From: a virus
Reading direction: 5' to 3' (one strand)
Length of the DNA: 33,434 bases
IMG/VR virus record: IMGVR_UViG_3300046822_000515
Location: 1 to 33,434 of that record
The notes beneath the pieces were generated by a model that saw nothing but the letters and a program-made list of their open reading frames with translations, made no database searches and was not told where the DNA came from. Position numbers and translations under genes: made by a program. This document shows positions 21,691 through 33,275 of the stretch, piece after piece; the stretch's first letter is position 1, and every line of letters begins with the position of its first letter.

Positions 21691-22899
21691 TCAACTAAAG
21701 GCATTTATGAACCAAGTGATAAGTGGGAGCGCCACCAGATCTATGAGTACAGCGCCACAAAGAGGAACTATGATAAATGCCTTGTGGGAGAAAGTTTTAT
21801 AGTGGTCGCAAACCGCACCCATGTTTGCCACTGCGTTCGGCGTTGCGCCTAGGCCATGCCCCATAAATCCCGCGCAAAGTACGGCTGCGTCGTAGTTTTT
21901 GCCGAAGGCGCGAAATAGTACGAATACACACAGCAATATCATGATTGCTACCTGAACAACGAGAATCACCAAAAGTGGTAAGCCAAGTTTTTCGAGTTCC
22001 CAAAACTTCAAGCTCATCATTGCCATTGTTAGGAAAATTCCCAGCGTGACGTCACCTATCGTGCTGACCGAGCTGTCGGGCAGCGACACGAACTTGATAC
22101 GATCATTCGTATTTCGAAATACAATCGCAACGAACATGGCGCCTACATAGCTTGGGAGGACAATTCCCAAATGTTCCTTGAGCGAATCTCCAAGCCAAAA
22201 TCCCAGAACCATTACTAATACAATGCAAGTGAGCAAGCGTAGCAAGGTCGCGCTATCGAGTACCGCTATCGGTTGCTTTGCCTCCCCGGCTAGGGATTTC
22301 AGGTCATTGCTCTGATCCGATTGTATGACGAGCTTATTCCGGTCGATCAGCCAGCGGGCCAGTGGGCTACCCAGTAATCCGCCAGCGATCATTCCAAAAG
22401 TGGCCGCTGAAAGTGCTGCGGTTGTCGCCCCCACTGCGCCAAGGTTTTCGGCAATTGGGCCAAAAGCCGCAGCAGCACCAAATCCCCCCTCAAGGGATAC
22501 AGCCCCAGCCATGACTCCCAACAGCGAATTAATACCCAGCACTTTAGCTAGGCTGACGCCAACGACGTTCTGAATCAAACCCAAGGCCCAGCACGCGCCT
22601 AAGTAAATGAAGAGAGTCTTCCCACCTTTTCGCAATAGACCAAGACTTCCGCCAAGTCCGATTGTTGTGAAGAACGCAACCATTAGTGGACTCTGAAGAC
22701 TTGTATCGAATTTGATGGTGAGTAGTTGTTGGCTTTGTAAAAACCACGCGATTAATGCAAAGCCAAATCCGCCAATAACGGGGGCGGGTACGCAGAGTTG
22801 GCGCAGCCAGTGACTATGCTTTTTCATTTGAGAGCCTGCGCCGAGTAACAGTAGTGCAAGGGCAAGCGTGCTTAACGCGTTAAGTTCGAGAGTTGGCAT
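21691..22899 (-). CDS. gltS: GltS-like sodium/glutamate (dicarboxylate) symporter
   Basis: A 402-residue inner-membrane protein with about ten or more hydrophobic segments and two inverted halves, colinear with E. coli GltS (401). Shared blocks include a DTSLQSPLMVAFFTTIGLGG-type segment at 65-84, GVMAGAVSLEGG at 128-139 and FGKNYDAAVLCAGFMGHGLGATPNAVANM near the C-terminus, which is almost identical to GltS. The first re-entrant loop reads EGGFGAAAAFG where E. coli has SGGHGTGAAWS, so the substrate may not be glutamate. The start is the ATG at 22899; the longer frame lacks a site. It is 86 bases downstream of an IclR-type regulator and within prophage DNA, with visibly lower G+C than phage structural genes. 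Confidence 0.8.
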   Translation of the reverse strand: MPTLELNALSTLALALLLLGAGSQMKKHSHWLRQLCVPAPVIGGFGFALIAWFLQSQQLLTIKFDTSLQSPLMVAFFTTIGLGGSLGLLRKGGKTLFIYLGACWALGLIQNVVGVSLAKVLGINSLLGVMAGAVSLEGGFGAAAAFGPIAENLGAVGATTAALSAATFGMIAGGLLGSPLARWLIDRNKLVIQSDQSNDLKSLAGEAKQPIAVLDSATLLRLLTCIVLVMVLGFWLGDSLKEHLGIVLPSYVGAMFVAIVFRNTNDRIKFVSLPDSSVSTIGDVTLGIFLTMAMMSLKFWELEKLGLPLLVILVVQVAIMILLCVFVLFRAFGKNYDAAVLCAGFMGHGLGATPNAVANMGAVCDHYKTFSHKAFIIVPLCGAVLIDLVALPLITWFINAFS

Positions 22900-22985
22900 T
22901 TTTGTTTTCTCATTGGAATGTGGTGCGTTGAAAAAATTGCACAATGCAGCGTCAACCTGGCCAGGTCTTTTATAATTTCAAAGTT
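22900..22985. promoter_or_regulatory. Putative regulator-controlled promoter region of the symporter
   Basis: This gap between the IclR-type regulator and the symporter holds a perfect 12-base palindrome ACCTGGCCAGGT (22955-22966) and a TGCACAATGCA element (22938-22948). It also has a minus-strand TTGACG hexamer directly after the palindrome and an A+T-rich TTATAAAAG. These would suit a promoter with an IclR-type operator, but no element is proven. Confidence 0.4.
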
Positions 22986-23711
22986 TTATTCGAGTTGTGC
23001 GCTAACTCGCATTGCAGATTCGCGTGCTTGTCGAATGAGGCGTTCACCAAAAAGCTCAGCCCGGGAAACTGGAGCCATTAGACTGATTGCACCGTGTAAC
23101 TTGTTGCGACTATCCAGTAGGGGAGCGCTTATCCCCCAGATTCCATCATCTATTACGCTTTGGCTAATGGAAAATCCGGCCTCTCGAATTTCGGCAAAAC
23201 CAATTAAGTAATCCTCAATGTTTCGCTCCCCGACGTTGTGTTCTTCCAGTACGGATCGACTTAGGGCCGGATCCATATAGGCAAGCATCACTCGGGCTGA
23301 AGCCCCGAACAGTAGCGGTTGTGCTAATCCTTTTTGATAACAGCAACGCAATGGTTGGGGGCTGTCGTAAAGCTCGACGCAAATTGCTTGGCCATTGCTC
23401 GGCACCATGAGCGCAACACTTTCTTTGCTTAATTCGGCCAAACGCTTCAGTTCAGGCCTTGCCAGCGTCAGGAGGGCAGCCTCGCGATCAAATTTTTTCG
23501 CCAATTGAATTGAGGCAGGCCCTGGTAGATAGCGACTATTGCCGTTCTCTTCTGCGAGCCCCCAACGCAATAACGTCTTGATGTGTCGGTATGTGCTGCT
23601 TAATGGCTGTGCTAAGCGCTCAGACAATTCCTTTGCAGAGATCGCGTCCTCTGATTGCCCGAGAGAAACGAGAATTTGAAGCAGACGATCTGTTGGCGTT
23701 TTGTAATTCAT
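22986..23711 (-). CDS. IclR-family transcriptional regulator
   Basis: A 241-residue protein with the IclR two-domain layout. Residues about 5-65 form a winged helix-turn-helix (TDRLLQILVSLG ... ISAKELSERLAQPLSSTYRHIKTLLRWGLAEEN). The C-terminal GAF-like effector domain runs from about 80, with ELKRLAELSKESVALMV, GASARVMLAYMD, and GIWGISAPLLDSRNKLHGAISLMAPVSR near the end. A GGAGG site precedes the ATG by five bases. IclR proteins usually control an adjacent transport or catabolic gene in response to a small carboxylic acid or aromatic ligand, so it most likely controls the neighbouring symporter. It is host-type metabolic cargo in a prophage. Confidence 0.85.
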   Translation of the reverse strand: MNYKTPTDRLLQILVSLGQSEDAISAKELSERLAQPLSSTYRHIKTLLRWGLAEENGNSRYLPGPASIQLAKKFDREAALLTLARPELKRLAELSKESVALMVPSNGQAICVELYDSPQPLRCCYQKGLAQPLLFGASARVMLAYMDPALSRSVLEEHNVGERNIEDYLIGFAEIREAGFSISQSVIDDGIWGISAPLLDSRNKLHGAISLMAPVSRAELFGERLIRQARESAMRVSAQLE

Positions 23712-23832
23712 TGTGGCCTCCGTGTCTTATCCACATGTTGCACCGGGTTTCTCCTGAGAGAAAATCAGATTCCCACTGAGCGGGAATGCCTGACATAAAG
23801 AGCGACAGATGGATGTGAGTCGGGTTTGTTAC

Positions 23833-24084
23833 TCAAATCTGCTGAAAGAGCGTTGCGGTGAATATCGGAGTCCACTCGCAACGAACTTCAAATACCCCCA
23901 GATCGCGGCCTTCTACGTTCTCAATGTGAACAACAGTGATCGGGGTGGGGCGATCTTCTGGATGGTCGCGCCAATGTGCAGCGGCTGCGATCTCCGCCAG
24001 CTCTTCCGCTGTACGGTCGTATACGTAGAGCGTTGGAAGGCTCAGGCGTCCTGGCAGCATATTTGCGACATAGCGAATTTCCAT
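23833..24084 (-). CDS. Small hypothetical phage protein
   Basis: An 83-residue protein with a strong GGAGG site upstream. It starts MEIRYVANMLPGRLSLPTLYVYDRTAEELAEIAAAAHW and continues with a beta-rich acidic section (PITVVHIENVEGRDLGVFEVRCEWTPIF). I recognise no family. It lies 24 bases after the next small gene and before the cargo genes, in the early region, so it is probably an early phage accessory protein. Confidence 0.55.
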   Translation of the reverse strand: MEIRYVANMLPGRLSLPTLYVYDRTAEELAEIAAAAHWRDHPEDRPTPITVVHIENVEGRDLGVFEVRCEWTPIFTATLFQQI

Positions 24085-24108
24085 GGTGTGTTCCTCCGTT
24101 TTCGTTTT

Positions 24109-24390
24109 TTAGGCTTGGCGCACCAGGTGCAGGATAAAGTCCGATGGAATACCCGAATAAATCCCCTTGCTTCTCAGATCCATGACGGCGCGTATCTGAA
24201 ATTGAGTGCAGTCGTCGGCCAGGAAATGCTTGTCGCCAGCGATGGCCCGTTCAGCTATCTGGTTAAGAAAGTAGGGTGTTGTCCAACGATCCCCGACAAT
24301 GATTGGCGCCTCAATTCCTTGCTCTTTCAGTTCGGTCTGGATTTCGCGCAATTTCTCAGTGCCGTGGGCGGTGATGATCTGTAATTGCAT
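24109..24390 (-). CDS. Small hypothetical phage protein
   Basis: A 93-residue protein starting MQLQIITAHGTEKLREIQTELKEQGIEAPIIVGDRWTTPYFLNQIAERAIAGD, with an AAGGAAAG site before the ATG. It has an alternating alpha/beta look and no obvious catalytic motif. It is the first gene after the repeat region that follows the primase, and it runs in the same direction as the primase and the 83-residue gene. Its function is unknown; a role in replication or early takeover is possible from position only. Confidence 0.55.
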   Translation of the reverse strand: MQLQIITAHGTEKLREIQTELKEQGIEAPIIVGDRWTTPYFLNQIAERAIAGDKHFLADDCTQFQIRAVMDLRSKGIYSGIPSDFILHLVRQA

Positions 24391-24859
24391 GGTTGTCTTT
24401 CCTTCTGCGGGTTGAGTGTTTAAGCGGAAAAATCAAAAAGGGGCGTGTACCCCTTTACATGGCGGAACATCCGGAACAGAAAGGCGCAGATTCCCGCTAG
24501 CCCACGGAATACGTGGCTTTCAGGGGGCAGGCTGTTTTGACTCCGTAGCCGGAACACAGCGGAACAAGTTTTTTGGCGGAATCGCTGTAAGCCTTGATCT
24601 ACAAGGGTTTGCGTGGTGTTGGCTAAATTCGGCTTGCCGGAACACATTTGGAACAGCATTTGAAAAGTTGTTCCGGTGCGTTCCACTGTGTTCCGGTCTG
24701 GTGTGATTGAGTGATGCTTGTTATCTATCTGTTTCTTATAGATATATTTCTTATAATTATTAATGTTCTGGATGTTCCAGCAGTTCAATGGCAACCCACA
24801 GATTTGGTCTAAACCACGGGTTTCGTCCCCTACACGAGTTTTTACCCCCACGACGTTAA
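24391..24859. other. Repeat-rich non-coding region, candidate phage replication origin
   Basis: No convincing gene lies in this stretch. It contains many copies of GGAACA in direct orientation (starting at 24464, 24473, 24551, 24561, 24639, 24650). These are followed by the inverted form TGTTCC, or one-base variants of it, at 24669, 24679, 24689, 24764 and 24773. Members of each group are 9-11 bases apart, about one helical turn, and the three direct pairs begin 87-88 bases apart. An A+T-rich block (24719-24766) lies between the inverted groups. Iterons plus an easily melted block next to a primase/helicase gene suggest an origin. A GTG-started frame (24863-24420) spans it but looks fortuitous. 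Confidence 0.55.
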
Positions 24860-27541
24860 TCACGATTTGTCCCCTTTCCGGAACACCCAGCAGTTCAGCG
24901 AGCGCTTCTCAATGACCGACCGGACTTTGCGAGTACCAAGGAAGCTGTGGGTGCTGCTGAGAGGTAGTGCTCGATGCAGTTGGGTAGCGTGAATGACTTC
25001 TTGGCCAGCAAGGCGGCAGGCGTTGTGGAAGTGTTCGATGTTGATCGCGATCTGACATTTGTCAGCGCTGTGGTTGAGCGTTTCGTGAAAGTCGTCACGA
25101 CTTCCTGTGCTGTCGGTGTGCGTTACCACCCGCTCGTTTAGGTAGTGATAGATCTGCCAGAAACGCGCCGCCGTTGGGTTCTCAGTGCTTACGCGTTGTT
25201 GCCGATCGATGGCGCGTGATTCGATGTGCTTTAGAACCTGTTCGAGCGCATCGTCGCTCCAGTCCGGGAACAGCGCCTGAGTCGCTTTGGCGGCCGCCAT
25301 CATTTGGGCGTGACACAGCACGATCCGTTGATGCTGGATCACCGTGTGCGCCTGCAGACGTTGTTCGTATTGTGGGAATGCTTCGAAGTAACGGGTCAGC
25401 CAAGCTGATTCCTGTCCGATGCAATGGCCGAGGTAACCGGATAGCTGTTCGACCGGTATTGCATTGAGCCCGACAGCCAGCACCTTCAAAGCGGGCGTGT
25501 GGTGTGCCCTGGTCGCGTGGTAGTGACTGATGCGGGTCAGGATCGCCTCTGAGCCGTCAACCGTCGCATTCTGGGCAATGCAGAGCGCTGCGAGGAAAAG
25601 GAGACTGTCCGTGTCGTTGCTTGAGGACTTCACCCCGACCGTGCGAAGTGTGGCGTTATGGTCAAACAGCGCTTTCCACTTTTCCCAGTTGTATTGGGTG
25701 ATTACCGCCCGACCCTGGGCATCGACGTTTTGACTGTCGGATTCAATCAACACCACAGGCAGGTTGCTGACTTGCGACAGTGCGCGAACGAGGCCGATGG
25801 CACTGGCGCCCTGGTCGCTCGGCTTGATGCCTTCGAAGTTGGAGCGCCCGACCAGACGCCACAGGAAGCGCAGCAAACTGGATTTACCTGCACCGGCGTC
25901 ACCGGTCAGTTCTAGGAATGGCCACGACTCTTGCTGGGTGCGGATCTGCTGTACAAACATAGTGGCCGTCCACCAGGACAATGCCGCCAGTCCGTTCATT
26001 TGGTGCACGGCGACGAAGTCAGAAAACCAGCTCGGATCGAAGGCCGCACCACGGGCGATTTGCAGGCTATTGAGTGAGGTTTTCAGGCCAGTTTTACCAA
26101 TCTCCAAATAGCCATGGTCGTTGGCCAGGTATTCGCGCCCGTTGTGATAACCAAACTTTTGAAAGCAATACGCCTTGCTTACAGCGTCGTAGCCAACGAA
26201 GGGTAATGAGCGGACGGTCAGGACATTGGCTAGCCACTTCTTGCGCAGCATGGACAACACTTTTTCGCCGCCTTCGAAGTTACCGCCCGGTGTGCGCTCC
26301 AGTAGCGATTTGGCAAAGCTGCGGGGGTCACCAATCGAATTAGGCGCCAAAGGCTCCTTGCAGTTTTGCGCCTCGTTGGGGAAGTTGAATTGAAAAAAGA
26401 ACTGCTGGTCACCGCTGAGCGCATCGCGCTGGATGTATTCGAAGTGCGGTACACAGTTGGCTACCTGGACGATGTCGCAGTGTTTTTCAAAGATGGCCTG
26501 GTTGCCGTTTACCGTCTCGCCATCCAACGCCTCGTTTAGATCGGTGATTTTGACCTTCGCCGAGTAGAGCTGGTTTTGAAAGTCGAGAAGGAAGAAACCG
26601 TGCTGCCGTTTCAGGTAGAGCAAATAAGCCTTATGCAGAGGGCTTGTGGCGACAAATAACCGACCTTGATAGCAAGCCTCTTGCAGGAATTCGTCATCCA
26701 GTTGGCCATCGCGGAACACGTCGTCCCAATCGCGATCTGCACCGGCTAACGCCACCCATGCTTTTTCTTTCATGGCGTGCAATTGCTTGCGATATTTCGG
26801 AATGACGGCATGGCCCGCTTTGTCGTCATCAAGGCCAATGATCCAGCGGATTTTTTTTCCTTTGTTTGCCTCGATTACTTCCCAAGGAAAGTTGCTGGCC
26901 GATATTGAAGCAATGGCCTTGTAGCCAGCGAGGAAGAAGGCGATAGCGTGGAATATTCCCTCGACCACGTAAACGTCGTCGCCTTCCTCGATGGTCATCC
27001 CCGGTGGCGTCCAGCCTTTACCCTGATAATCCGTTCCGTATTTGATTTGGGCTTTCTTGCCCTTGTTCAGCGCGACCGCTGTTGAATCGATCAAGCGATC
27101 CCAGTGTCCGTTGCATAGAGGAAAGCGAACGGTGTCCGCCCAGGTGTCGTCTTGCAGCTTGCGCTTGCCTTGGGTGTAACACCCCGACAGCTTGCTGATA
27201 TCAAAACCGCGGTTGCGTTGCAGATATGCATCTGCCGTCGCGTTCGGGTTTTCCTCCGTTTGCGGGAATCGCTCGCTCAGGTTTTCGAACAGGTGGCTGT
27301 AACGTTCGCGGGTTTTTCCCTCAAATTGGCATTCATTCAGGCGATTGCATTTGAGAACAAATGGCTTGTCTGTACTGACAAATAATTCTCGCTGGCCGCA
27401 GTTTGGGCAAACGCCCTGCTGCATGTATTTCGCAGTGATTTTTTTGAAGTCCAGATCCCTGTCGTTCTCCAAAGCATCGACAACGTCCTGGAGATAGATC
27501 TCGTCGAAGTCAGACTGTTTGAGGGGCGCACGCTTAGCCAT
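24860..27541 (-). CDS. Phage DNA primase/helicase (zinc finger, TOPRIM, ATPase)
   Basis: An 893-residue replication protein. Four cysteines (45, 48, 65, 71) form a primase-type zinc ribbon. A TOPRIM domain has the acidic Glu194 in VVEGIFHAI and the DDD at 238-240 in GLDDDKAG, the metal-binding residues for primer synthesis. A P-loop ATPase follows with Walker A GDAGAGKS at about 547-554, so it probably also unwinds DNA, like the bifunctional P4 alpha-type and DUF927-type phage proteins. It overlaps the Cox-like stop by one base (TGATG) and is followed by a repeat array that may be its origin. It replaces the A/B rolling-circle functions of P2. Confidence 0.85.
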   Translation of the reverse strand: MAKRAPLKQSDFDEIYLQDVVDALENDRDLDFKKITAKYMQQGVCPNCGQRELFVSTDKPFVLKCNRLNECQFEGKTRERYSHLFENLSERFPQTEENPNATADAYLQRNRGFDISKLSGCYTQGKRKLQDDTWADTVRFPLCNGHWDRLIDSTAVALNKGKKAQIKYGTDYQGKGWTPPGMTIEEGDDVYVVEGIFHAIAFFLAGYKAIASISASNFPWEVIEANKGKKIRWIIGLDDDKAGHAVIPKYRKQLHAMKEKAWVALAGADRDWDDVFRDGQLDDEFLQEACYQGRLFVATSPLHKAYLLYLKRQHGFFLLDFQNQLYSAKVKITDLNEALDGETVNGNQAIFEKHCDIVQVANCVPHFEYIQRDALSGDQQFFFQFNFPNEAQNCKEPLAPNSIGDPRSFAKSLLERTPGGNFEGGEKVLSMLRKKWLANVLTVRSLPFVGYDAVSKAYCFQKFGYHNGREYLANDHGYLEIGKTGLKTSLNSLQIARGAAFDPSWFSDFVAVHQMNGLAALSWWTATMFVQQIRTQQESWPFLELTGDAGAGKSSLLRFLWRLVGRSNFEGIKPSDQGASAIGLVRALSQVSNLPVVLIESDSQNVDAQGRAVITQYNWEKWKALFDHNATLRTVGVKSSSNDTDSLLFLAALCIAQNATVDGSEAILTRISHYHATRAHHTPALKVLAVGLNAIPVEQLSGYLGHCIGQESAWLTRYFEAFPQYEQRLQAHTVIQHQRIVLCHAQMMAAAKATQALFPDWSDDALEQVLKHIESRAIDRQQRVSTENPTAARFWQIYHYLNERVVTHTDSTGSRDDFHETLNHSADKCQIAINIEHFHNACRLAGQEVIHATQLHRALPLSSTHSFLGTRKVRSVIEKRSLNCWVFRKGDKS

Positions 27542-29316: not shown

Positions 29317-29345
29317 TGGTGGGCCCACACGGACTTGAACCGTGG
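29317..29345. other. Probable attachment core (att) at tRNA 3' end
   Basis: The integrase gene points at the tRNA 3' end, so the crossover core probably lies inside the 3' part of the tRNA gene. I searched the window by eye for a second copy of this end (for example GGACTTGAACCGTGG) and found none, so the other attachment site should be outside, left of base 1. The extent of the core cannot be defined from this end alone. Confidence 0.5.
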
Positions 29346-29393
29346 ACCAAAGGATTATGAGTCCTCTGCTCTAACCAACTGAGCTATAGGCCC
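29317..29393 (-). tRNA. tRNA with CAU anticodon (Met, or Ile2)
   Basis: A 77-base tRNA on the minus strand. The acceptor arms GGGCCTA and TGGGCCC pair (one G-T), followed by the discriminator A and an encoded CCA. The D-loop region is AGCTCAGTTGGTTAGAGC, the anticodon loop CTCATAA gives CAU, and the T-loop is TTCAAGT. Elongator Met and lysidine-modified Ile2 tRNAs share this anticodon; identity cannot be settled by eye. Its intact 3' end faces the prophage integrase, so it is the probable attB, restored by phage DNA or left intact by integration. Confidence 0.9.
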
Positions 29394-29408
29394 TCAGTAG
29401 GCCGCGGA

Positions 29409-32400
29409 TTATAGCGATGGTTTCTCGGCTGTGCTATCCGAAAAATCCGATACCGTTACACGCAGAAACGTTGCGGCGAATTCTTCCGGCGGCAGCGGCA
29501 GGCTGACGATGTAGCCCTGGATCTGTTCGCAGCCCTCGGCGGCGAGGAATTGTTGCTGCGCCTGGGTTTCCACGCCCTCGGCGATGACGGTGAATTGCAT
29601 GCTTCGCCCCAGTGCGATGATGGCGCGCACAATCGCCGCGTCGTGGGGGTCGTCGGGCAGTCCGCGGACAAAGGACTGGTCGATTTTGAGGATGTCCAGT
29701 GGCAGGCGTTTGAGGTAGCTGAGCGAGGAATATCCGGTGCCGAAGTCGTCGATCGCCAGTTGCACGCCGAGGTGTTTGAGTTGGTGCAGCACGGCCAGCG
29801 CCTCTTCGGCCTGACTCATGATGAAATTCTCGGTAATTTCCAGTTGCAGTAAATCCGGCATCAGGCCGTTTTCGTTGAGCAGTTGCTCGATGCGCCCGAG
29901 CAGGTTCGGCTGGCGCAGTTGCGCGCCGGCAAGGTTGACCGATAACGGGCCGAGGCTGTCGTAGACCTGATTCCACTCGAACATCTGCCGGCACGCGGTC
30001 TCCAGCACCCAGTCGCCGATCTGCAGAATCATGCCGTTCTCTTCGGCCAACGGAATGAAGTGCTCCGGCGGCACATCGCCAAAGGTCGGGTGGCGCCAGC
30101 GAATCAACGCTTCGGCACCGACCAGACGATGGTCGTCGAGGCTGATTTTTGGCTGGTAGTAGAGGTGCAATTCATTGCGCTCGATGGCCCGGCGCAGTTC
30201 GTGTTCCAGCGCGATACGCTCGCTGGCCTGCGCGGTGAGGTCGCGGGTGTAGCTTTCGACGCGGTTGCGGCCCTTGGCTTTGGAGCGGTACATCGCCGCG
30301 TCGGCGTTTTTTACCAGTGTGGCGACGTCGCAGCCGTCGCGCGGATAGAGGCTGGTGCCGATGCTGGCGCTGATGAAGAACTCATGTTCGCCAGCCTGAA
30401 ACGGCGCGCCGAAGCAGTTGAGCAGTTTGGTGGCGATGTTGTCCGCGTCGCTGGCCTGTTGCAGGCCGGGCAGCAGGATGATGAATTCATCACCGCCCAA
30501 CCGTGCCACGGTGTCGATATCGCGCAGTTGCTCTTTGAGGCGCACGGCGATGCCCTTGAGCAGCAGGTCGCCGACCGGGTGGCCGAGGCTGTCGTTGATG
30601 TGTTTGAAACGGTCAAGATCGAGGAACAGCACGGCGCCCTGACCGCCGTTTTCCTGTTGCGTGGTCAGCGCAGTGAGCAGACGACTTTCGAACAGCGTGC
30701 GATTTGGCAGGCCGGTGAGCGGGTCGTGGTGCGCCTGATAATCGAGTTTCGCCTGCGCGTGTTTGAGACTGGAGATGTCGGCAAACACAGCGACAAAGTG
30801 CGTGATGAATTTGTCGCGGTTGCGCACGGCGCTGATGGTCAGCCAGCTCGGGTAGAGCTCGCCGTTTTTACGCCGGTTGGAGATCTCGCCTTGCCAGTGA
30901 CCTTCGTCGGTCAACTGGTGCCACATCGCCGCATAAAACGCGCTGTCGTGCAGACCGGAGGCGAGCAGGCGCGGGGTGTGGCCAAGGGCTTCGCTTTCGC
31001 TGTAACCGGTGATTTCCGTGAAGGCGCGGTTGACTGCGCTGATGTGCTGCTGCGTATCGGTGATCAATACGCCTTCGGCGGTGCTCTCGAACACGGTCGC
31101 AGCCTGTTGCAGTTTTTCCTGCATCAGATGACGTTCAGTAATGTCGCGGGCGATGGTCAGCATGCAATCTTCGTCACCGATCGGCAGTGGTCGGCTGGAC
31201 ACTTCGCACAGACGAATCTGACCATCGCTGCGGCGGATATGGCAGGTGAAATCACGCACAAAGCCGTCGCGGTGCAGCAGGTCGAGCATCTGTTTGCGCT
31301 CGTTGAGATTGACCCAGATCCCCAGATCCAGCGCCGAACGATCAACCGACATCGCGCTGTTGAATCCGGTGATGCGGCTGAACCCTTCGTTGACCTCCAG
31401 CAGCAGGCCATCGCTCTGCCGCGACAACAACAATCCGTCCGGCGAGGCGTGGAAAGCCTTGGCGAATTTCTCTTCGGAGGTTTGCAATTGCTGCTGGGTT
31501 TCTTTGAGCTGGGTAATGTCGCGCACCACGACCACCAGCGCCGGCGTGGTGTCGAGGTCGAACGGCTCGGCGGAAATCAGGCCGGTGAACACTTGGCCGT
31601 TGTTGCGGCGGAAGGGCATTTCCAGGTTGCGGATGCTGCCGGCCTGCAAACGCTGGAGCAAACCGGGGCCAACACCGGGAATACCCCAGATATTCAGATC
31701 CGTGGCGGTCTGGCCGATGACTTCTTCGGCCTTGAGTCCAATCTGTTCCTCGAAGGCTTCGTTGACCTCCAGCAAACAGCCGTCGGACAGTCGTGCAATC
31801 ACCAGAATGTCCGGGCATTGCTGGAAGACCGAGGCGAATTTCTGCTCGGACAGACGCAACGCCTCTTCTGTGCGCTTGGTTTCGCTGATATCAATCATCA
31901 GCCCGCGCATCACCGGTTCATGGCCGTGTTCGATCAGGCTGACGATGTCGCGCACCCACAGGCAGCGGCCATCGGCGGTAATCACTCGGTAATCGAGGCT
32001 GTGATCGCGTCCGGCCAGCACCTCGTGATCACAAAAACTCTGGGCGCGAGTGAGGTCGGCCGGATGAATGATGTTGCGCCAGAACCCCGGAATCAGCCAA
32101 TGCGACAGTGGATAACCGAGCAAGTCTTCGGCGTGCGGCGACACATAGCTGTAGGTGAAGTCGCTCATGCGCGCTTCCCAAGCGATCGCCGACAAACTCT
32201 CGACCAGCCCACGGTAGTGATATTCGCTGCTGCGCAGCTCCTGTTCGAGGTCGATGCGCCGGGCGATTTCCGAGCTGAGGCGGCGGTTGATGCGGATCAC
32301 CACGGCCAGCACGATCATCAGCAATAACAGGCCGGGCAAGCCGTAAACCAGCAGGTCTGACCAGAATGTCCGGTGATCGAGGACGTTGCCGACCCAGTGT

Positions 32401-33155
32401 TCCTGAATGGCGCTGATTTCGGCGGGGCTCATGTCGGCGAGGACTTTGTCGAGAATCCCCACCAGCACTTTGTTTTCGCGCGGCACGCCCATCGCCAGTT
32501 GATATCGATACGGGGTTTCGCCGCTGACGTAGAGGCCGTCGAGTTTGAGCTGACGCAGGCTCCAGACGCTGGAGGCGAGATCGCCCACCACGGCGTCAAC
32601 TTCGTCGGTCGCCAGCGCCTGCAACGCCGAACTGACGTTGGGCATGGCCACCAGATTCAGATCCGGGTGGTGGGTGCGCAGAAGTTCGTGCGGCGCATAG
32701 TTTTCCACCACGGCGATTTTTAATCCGTACAGATCATCGAGTTTACGCGGTTGCGCGCCGCCGACGTGGGCGAGGATGACAATCGGGAAGTCGAGGTAGG
32801 GCCGGGTGAATGACAGATAGTTCTGCCGTTCCGGAGTGGACATGATCCCCGGCAGCAGATCGATCTTGCCGGTTTTGACCTGATCCAGCACTTCCGTCCA
32901 ACTGATGGGCTCAATCGGCGTGAGTTTGATCGCCAGACGCTGGCGAATCACGTCGATGTAATCAGCCGCCAAGCCCTGATAACGGCTCTGGTCGTCACGA
33001 AACTCAAACGGTGGCCACGATGCATCGACACCCAGGCGCAAGTCCGGGTGAGCCGCCAGCCAGCCACGTTCTTCATCGGTCAGAGTCAGCGCGTTAGCCG
33101 TTGCGGTCCAAATCATCAGTGACAGCACGAAAAGCACGGGCGCCAGTCTGGGCAT
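29409..33155 (-). CDS. rmcA: RmcA-like cyclic-di-GMP phosphodiesterase/cyclase with periplasmic sensor
   Basis: A 1,248-residue inner-membrane signalling protein (P. aeruginosa RmcA, PA0575, about 1,245) that adjusts c-di-GMP and so matrix and biofilm behaviour. A signal peptide (1-22) leads to a periplasmic solute-binding (SBP_bac_3) domain at about 28-255 and a membrane helix at about 270-291. Four PAS domains start at about 308, 435, 560 and 685. The GGDEF motif is intact at 887-891 with an inhibitory-site RxxD (878-881) before it, and the EAL domain has EAL at 1015-1017 and DDFGTG at 1136-1141, so both activities look possible. The ATG at 33155 is chosen because it starts the signal peptide. 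It ends 15 bases before the tRNA and lies directly downstream of rpoD. Confidence 0.9.
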   Translation of the reverse strand: MPRLAPVLFVLSLMIWTATANALTLTDEERGWLAAHPDLRLGVDASWPPFEFRDDQSRYQGLAADYIDVIRQRLAIKLTPIEPISWTEVLDQVKTGKIDLLPGIMSTPERQNYLSFTRPYLDFPIVILAHVGGAQPRKLDDLYGLKIAVVENYAPHELLRTHHPDLNLVAMPNVSSALQALATDEVDAVVGDLASSVWSLRQLKLDGLYVSGETPYRYQLAMGVPRENKVLVGILDKVLADMSPAEISAIQEHWVGNVLDHRTFWSDLLVYGLPGLLLLMIVLAVVIRINRRLSSEIARRIDLEQELRSSEYHYRGLVESLSAIAWEARMSDFTYSYVSPHAEDLLGYPLSHWLIPGFWRNIIHPADLTRAQSFCDHEVLAGRDHSLDYRVITADGRCLWVRDIVSLIEHGHEPVMRGLMIDISETKRTEEALRLSEQKFASVFQQCPDILVIARLSDGCLLEVNEAFEEQIGLKAEEVIGQTATDLNIWGIPGVGPGLLQRLQAGSIRNLEMPFRRNNGQVFTGLISAEPFDLDTTPALVVVVRDITQLKETQQQLQTSEEKFAKAFHASPDGLLLSRQSDGLLLEVNEGFSRITGFNSAMSVDRSALDLGIWVNLNERKQMLDLLHRDGFVRDFTCHIRRSDGQIRLCEVSSRPLPIGDEDCMLTIARDITERHLMQEKLQQAATVFESTAEGVLITDTQQHISAVNRAFTEITGYSESEALGHTPRLLASGLHDSAFYAAMWHQLTDEGHWQGEISNRRKNGELYPSWLTISAVRNRDKFITHFVAVFADISSLKHAQAKLDYQAHHDPLTGLPNRTLFESRLLTALTTQQENGGQGAVLFLDLDRFKHINDSLGHPVGDLLLKGIAVRLKEQLRDIDTVARLGGDEFIILLPGLQQASDADNIATKLLNCFGAPFQAGEHEFFISASIGTSLYPRDGCDVATLVKNADAAMYRSKAKGRNRVESYTRDLTAQASERIALEHELRRAIERNELHLYYQPKISLDDHRLVGAEALIRWRHPTFGDVPPEHFIPLAEENGMILQIGDWVLETACRQMFEWNQVYDSLGPLSVNLAGAQLRQPNLLGRIEQLLNENGLMPDLLQLEITENFIMSQAEEALAVLHQLKHLGVQLAIDDFGTGYSSLSYLKRLPLDILKIDQSFVRGLPDDPHDAAIVRAIIALGRSMQFTVIAEGVETQAQQQFLAAEGCEQIQGYIVSLPLPPEEFAATFLRVTVSDFSDSTAEKPSL

Positions 33156-33245
33156 AACGCTCTCGTTATGGCTCGGGGGTGATTGTTTCGAGTGTAGACG
33201 CGGACTGCAGCGGGGAGGGTGGTGCGAGGAATTTAATCTGCCTAA

Positions 33246-33275
33246 AAACAAAACCCCCGGCCTGGGCCGGGGGTT
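33246..33275 (-). terminator. rpoD intrinsic terminator
   Basis: Arms AACCCCCGGCC (33252-33262) and GGCCGGGGGTT (33265-33275) form a G+C-rich stem, followed on the minus strand by TTTTGTTTTTAGG. It lies 7 bases after the rpoD stop and separates rpoD from rmcA. Confidence 0.85.

Follow-up and report, generated by a model that had tools for sequence, protein, structure and literature searches.

In lambdoid phages, the initiator O and the iterons of ori are adjacent and are exchanged together between relatives. In P4, the alpha protein carries a DNA-binding C-terminus, and in P2 the origin served by gpA is located, in gene order, between Cox/C/int and the portal gene Q. The C-terminal domain of SaPI Rep was found to recognise the origin iterons, which lie directly downstream of the rep gene (PMC7581432). 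Similarly, PICI origins were described as an A+T-rich region flanked by iteron sets, and a pri-rep-ori segment maintains a plasmid (PMC6092414). The locus considered here is an array of short repeats beside a primase-helicase gene, and it is very probably the replication origin of the prophage that carries it, bound by the adjacent primase-helicase through its C-terminal domain and used for theta replication. A literature search, which covered mainly papers outside subscription journals, found no description of this origin.

The array and its prophage setting

The window, which is the whole stretch of DNA analysed (33,434 nucleotides), corresponds to a complete virus record and represents a P2-type prophage, with portal, terminase, capsid, tail, Ogr, Cox, C-like repressor and integrase genes of P2 type. 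The presence of all the P2-type portal, terminase, capsid, Ogr, Cox and C/int genes assigned it to the Peduoviridae, the family in which the named relatives phi3 and PaBSM-2607-JFK are classified. The suggestion that this phage lacks the P2 A gene was borne out, as the gpA domain (Phage_GPA, PF05840) was not found in the window, with a positive result in the control genome, and the place of gene A was found to be occupied by an 893-aa phrog_1139 protein. The phage is best read as a P2-type Pseudomonas prophage without P2 gpA. Between the Ogr/portal genes and the array (21691-24390), a sodium/glutamate symporter gene (GltS) and an IclR-type regulator occupy the tin/old position of P2 and are metabolic cargo of the prophage. 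At 29317-33251, a tRNA-Met directly beyond the integrase is followed by a 1280-aa PAS-GGDEF-EAL gene, and this stretch is probably the attachment site and host flank.

The array extends over about 315 bp directly 3' of the TOPRIM-primase/AAA+ helicase gene and contains nine exact copies of GGAACA/TGTTCC, with GGAACA on the + strand starting at 24464, 24473, 24551, 24561, 24639 and 24650 and TGTTCC, on the - strand, at 24669, 24689 and 24773. Two one-mismatch copies (24679 and 24764) complete the eleven of the original prediction. The + strand copies form three iteron pairs with periods of 9 bp (GGAACA-tcc-GGAACA, 24464..24478), 10 bp (24551..24566) and 11 bp (24639..24655), the latter two also supported by the relatives, and the spacing of their starts (87 and 88 bp) agrees with that first described. 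They are followed on the - strand by an inverted triplet with a 10 bp period (24669..24694), whose middle copy is the variant CGTTCC, and by an inverted pair with a 9 bp period (24764..24778), formed by the variant TGTTCT and TGTTCC. The A+T-rich block expected between these inverted groups was found between 24694 and 24764, and the proposed melting check placed the least stable 60 bp of the window within the array, at 24717..24776 in the nearest-neighbour profile, as a candidate unwinding element. The iteron groups are distributed around this block with a single pair on one side and several groups on the other. A further GGAACA, also anticipated, is present inside the primase 3' end (24880..24885, + strand), and was retained in many relatives, not all. 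Immediately beyond the array in the direction of the primase strand, a terminator-like hairpin with a T-rich tail (24437..24456, - strand) was weakly indicated by two overlapping consensus-scan hits, against 0.8 expected. Neither a DnaA box nor an IHF site was found in the array, and the GC skew showed no switch there.

The maximum number of exact copies per 320 bp was nine, compared with four in the best of 300 dinucleotide shuffles. Over the whole window, 28 copies were counted against 18.3 expected, which marks the enrichment as local, and the same count revealed no second GGAACA cluster. Clustering alone is weak, non-decisive evidence, because the hexamer CTGGCC likewise peaks at nine per 320 bp elsewhere in the window; conservation is decisive. 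The similar local count of CTGGCC, together with the arrays formed in viral contigs by the arbitrary hexamer GGACAA, could be taken to mean that the repeats arose by chance or through codon usage, or are passive and have no protein partner, but this is contradicted by the conserved layout after the gene, by coordinated changes of the copies and by covariation with one protein domain, and such an origin of the repeats has next to no probability.

When viral sequences were scanned for GGAACA, many arrays were detected, of which at least ten directly follow the gene of an unrelated primase-helicase. Dense mixed-orientation GGAACA/TGTTCC arrays were seen at ten loci (L160, L161, L179, L182, L192, L197, L200, L210, L218 and L223), immediately 3' of Prim-Pol/AAA_25, DUF5906/D5_N, VapE and DUF927 primase-helicases, and no homology of the C-termini of those other primase-helicases to that of the window protein was detected. 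Among the matches listed, dense two-orientation arrays were present at 47 of 120 loci for GGAACA and at 22 of 120 for the control GGACAA (L265-L384). The idea of GGAACA as a privileged iteron across phages was therefore abandoned, since the control hexamer gives arrays too, and its 22 loci imply that iteron arrays built on other words are common and uncharted.

Conservation and coordinated change of the iterons

All of the first 30 relatives (30/30, primase identity of 66-81%) contained 8-14 TGTTCC/GGAACA copies within 500 bp after the primase match and about zero in the neighbouring 500-bp bins. The checks proposed for motif enrichment and for related prophages thus gave an uneven density, concentrated in the array, and an array that the closer relatives retain in the corresponding position. 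Read along the primase strand, the groups in the relatives follow the order 9-bp pair, A+T block, 10-bp triplet, inverted 11-bp pair, single copy, inverted 10-bp pair and closing inverted 9-bp pair. Compared with this layout, the window array lacks the single copy and carries one-base variants of two other copies. The inverted triplet has all three copies exact in many relatives, the inverted pair is exact in most, and the pair corresponding to 24464..24478 closes the array in most, while the sequence of the A+T block is strongly conserved in the window's clade. For Smp131-type primases (about 30% identity), neither exact k-mers nor inspection by eye revealed an array 3' of the gene, so the arrangement does not extend to the whole family. 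In one relative (L031) the primase reading frame is broken and in another (L464) the primase C-terminus is out of frame, with the array still present in both; in PaBSM-2607-JFK (L032, 7078-7501) two short coding genes, probably spurious, are annotated across it.

One claim of the original prediction was not upheld. A string, TGAACTGCTGG, had been considered to link the array with the primase end, and both minus-strand copies do exist, but at 24888 the string is coding sequence for the conserved LNCW of the primase C-terminus, and most relatives have not kept the other copy, so that the string links nothing and its recurrence looks coincidental.

In some relatives, the iterons were found to have changed together from GGAACA to GGAAGG, GGAATG, GGTATG or AGTAACA with the layout kept; PaBSM-2607-JFK, for example, presents GGAAGG iterons in the same layout, and L479 presents AGTAACA; phi3 belongs to the GGAACA type. 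The simultaneous switch of all copies with an intact layout points to one sequence-reading protein. Five of the GGAATG-type arrays (L429, L430, L434, L437 and L447) have four exact copies in addition to TAGTTCA/GAACTA repeats, which are a possible second repeat.

The primase C-terminus and residue 874

The TOPRIM primase fused to an AAA+ initiator-type helicase (phrog_1139, 893 aa; 24860..27541, - strand) displays zinc-ribbon-like cysteines, a TOPRIM domain and a Walker motif. Its predicted full-length fold best matched SCCmec Cch (E 8e-12) and SaPIBov1 Rep, and also the DnaG catalytic core; the Cch/Rep-type AAA+ helicase match has a TM to target of about 0.5, with low-confidence stretches in the helicase core. 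The earlier description of the protein as a primase/helicase of the P4 alpha type held for the TOPRIM part and failed for the helicase half, as the P4 alpha profile aligned over residues 133-313 (TOPRIM) only and no Pfam match to D5_N, the SF3 helicase domain found in alpha, was obtained in the window protein. The C-terminal domain (residues 821-893; 24863..25081, - strand) probably binds the iterons, judging from the sequence association and cassette swaps discussed below. Its predicted order of elements is helix-helix-strand-wing-strand (model pLDDT 84.6); the model gave no significant fold match in the PDB, and a winged-helix assignment by fold match was dropped, leaving the element order. 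Among the primase-helicases beside the other GGAACA arrays and P4 alpha (L144), many were noticed by eye to have a basic K-x-R-like stretch just before the last strand, at the place where residue 874 sits in the window protein; sequence similarity could not be shown.

The association between iteron type and primase position was strongest at residues 821-880 and reached its maximum at residue 874, an arginine at the end of the predicted first wing strand (codon 24920..24922, - strand), which covaries with iteron bases 5-6. Across 96 genomes, the combinations of residue and iteron were R/GGAACA (70), H/GGAAGG (12), Y/GGAATG (12), W/GGTATG (1) and R/AGTAACA (1). Column 874 was the only primase column that fully determined bases 5-6 in these genomes, with a normalised mutual information with iteron type of 0.967 versus 0.774 for the next column, 879, which falls in the same predicted wing. 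The four-type rule was derived from 51 sequences, in which only column 874 separated the four first iteron types, and was obeyed by 44 of the 45 rows added afterwards. The exception, L479, combines a new iteron with R, the arginine and AACA being kept and the first half of the iteron changed, which means that other residues matter too; this single case is consistent with residue 874 and other positions dividing the task between them. The 96-genome counts are not independent events, because the sequences are related: the tree contains six iteron changes and five residue-874 changes, giving two to three independent pairs, for which a sign test was not significant. The Y/GGAATG pairing was nevertheless found in two separate well-supported clades.

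Two natural recombinants (L050 and L479) were identified in which only the primase C-terminus and the array have been replaced. The primases of L050 and L048 differ at 11 residues, eight of them within the last 45, and DNA identity between L050 and L048/L049 is reduced to 73-91% solely in the interval -200 to +400 around the primase stop, with more than 2 kb upstream at 92-100% and the downstream flank mostly at 89-95%. In the comparison with L048, the dip spans the C-terminal codons through to the end of the array. An equivalent dip (-300 to +500, 54-88%) was observed in another clade for L479 against L475/L426, whereas L426 and L475, which have one and the same iteron, display uniform identity across this region. 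It is slightly favoured that residue 874 may act as a near one-letter specificity key (R for ..CA, H for ..GG and Y/W for ..TG), with the C-terminal domain and the array as an exchangeable replication-specificity cassette. If true, co-resident prophages of this lineage could hold mutually blind origins.

The same comparisons bear on whether another phage or host protein, such as Cox, the C repressor or the product of a downstream small ORF, uses the array as its operator or partition site. Cox and C are P2-type DNA binders and repeat arrays do serve as operators and partition sites, but the upstream Cox/C regions diverge between L048 and L049 and between L426 and L475 while the iteron is constant, which indicates that the iteron is not set by Cox or C. 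Nor does the sequence downstream of the array vary with iteron type; only the primase C-terminus does so, and an operator or partition function is accordingly very unlikely. Taken together, the association, the swaps and the divergence of Cox/C identify the primase C-terminal domain as the likely reader of the array.

Proposed initiation and comparison with described systems

The proposal of a candidate origin was supported by what was observed here, namely the array, its position, conservation and low duplex stability, the C-terminal covariation and the swapping as a unit, the covariation with the primase C-terminus being evidence beyond that originally put forward. After induction, the primase-helicase would use its C-terminal domain (about residues 821-893) to bind the GGAACA iterons, as suggested by the covariation, with residue 874 probably reading bases 5-6 of each iteron. 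By analogy, copies of the protein would form helicase rings on the iteron groups flanking the A+T block, the assembled rings would melt the block and the fused TOPRIM primase would prime synthesis, resulting in circle-based (theta) replication in place of the gpA rolling-circle mode of P2.

P4 offers another way of viewing the array, as a replication-control (copy-number/incompatibility) or auxiliary primase-bound locus similar to crr, with initiation taking place elsewhere. The ori and crr of P4 are distinct sites, each carrying type I iterons, and its crr lies just 3' of alpha, as the array does here. In P4, however, ori forms a second cluster about 4.7 kb from crr, whereas the window has no second GGAACA cluster and holds the A+T block inside the array, so that a control locus is unlikely. 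The reading as an origin supplies, for a lineage of P2-type phages without the known mechanism of P2, a concrete origin and initiator, and places a satellite-type origin in a full phage. The matched protein and iteron variants form a natural series in which initiator-origin recognition is testable without designed mutants, and they suggest a way for related prophages and satellites that share a cell to keep their replication apart, or to steal it.

Phages commonly carry arrays after primase-helicase genes, P4 crr being one such case already described, so this kind of system is not in itself new; the novelty lies in this variant, in its presence in a complete P2-type phage and in the correspondence between residue and iteron. 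As in the SaPI/PICI systems (SaPIBov1 Rep, SCCmec Cch and EcCICFT073 pri-rep-ori), short iterons lie directly after the initiator helicase gene and iteron sets surround an A+T-rich region; this position immediately 3' of the gene is observed in the window, and the origin role is the probable reading of it. SaPIs and PICIs are satellites without capsid and tail genes of their own, whereas the window phage is complete (portal, terminase, capsid and tail present), and its protein differs from their helicases in the fusion of a DnaG-like TOPRIM primase to the Cch/SaPIBov1-Rep-like helicase. P4 crr resembles the array in its location immediately 3' of alpha and in its iteron pairs 9 bp apart in both orientations, and alpha is likewise a TOPRIM primase fused to a helicase, although its helicase half has no detectable kinship with that of the window protein. 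The P4 iteron TGTTCACC and TGTTCC have TGTTC in common, but the type I iterons of P4 occur in both ori and crr, while TGTTCC forms one cluster. The array occupies the same gene-order place as the P2 gpA origin; in P2 the nick site is inside gpA, whereas the window phage has an iteron array and no gpA domain was found in it. Finally, adjacent initiator and iterons and their joint exchange are shared with lambdoid O/ori, but in lambda the iterons are inside the O gene and O loads the host DnaB, whereas here the array lies 3' of a self-contained primase-helicase.
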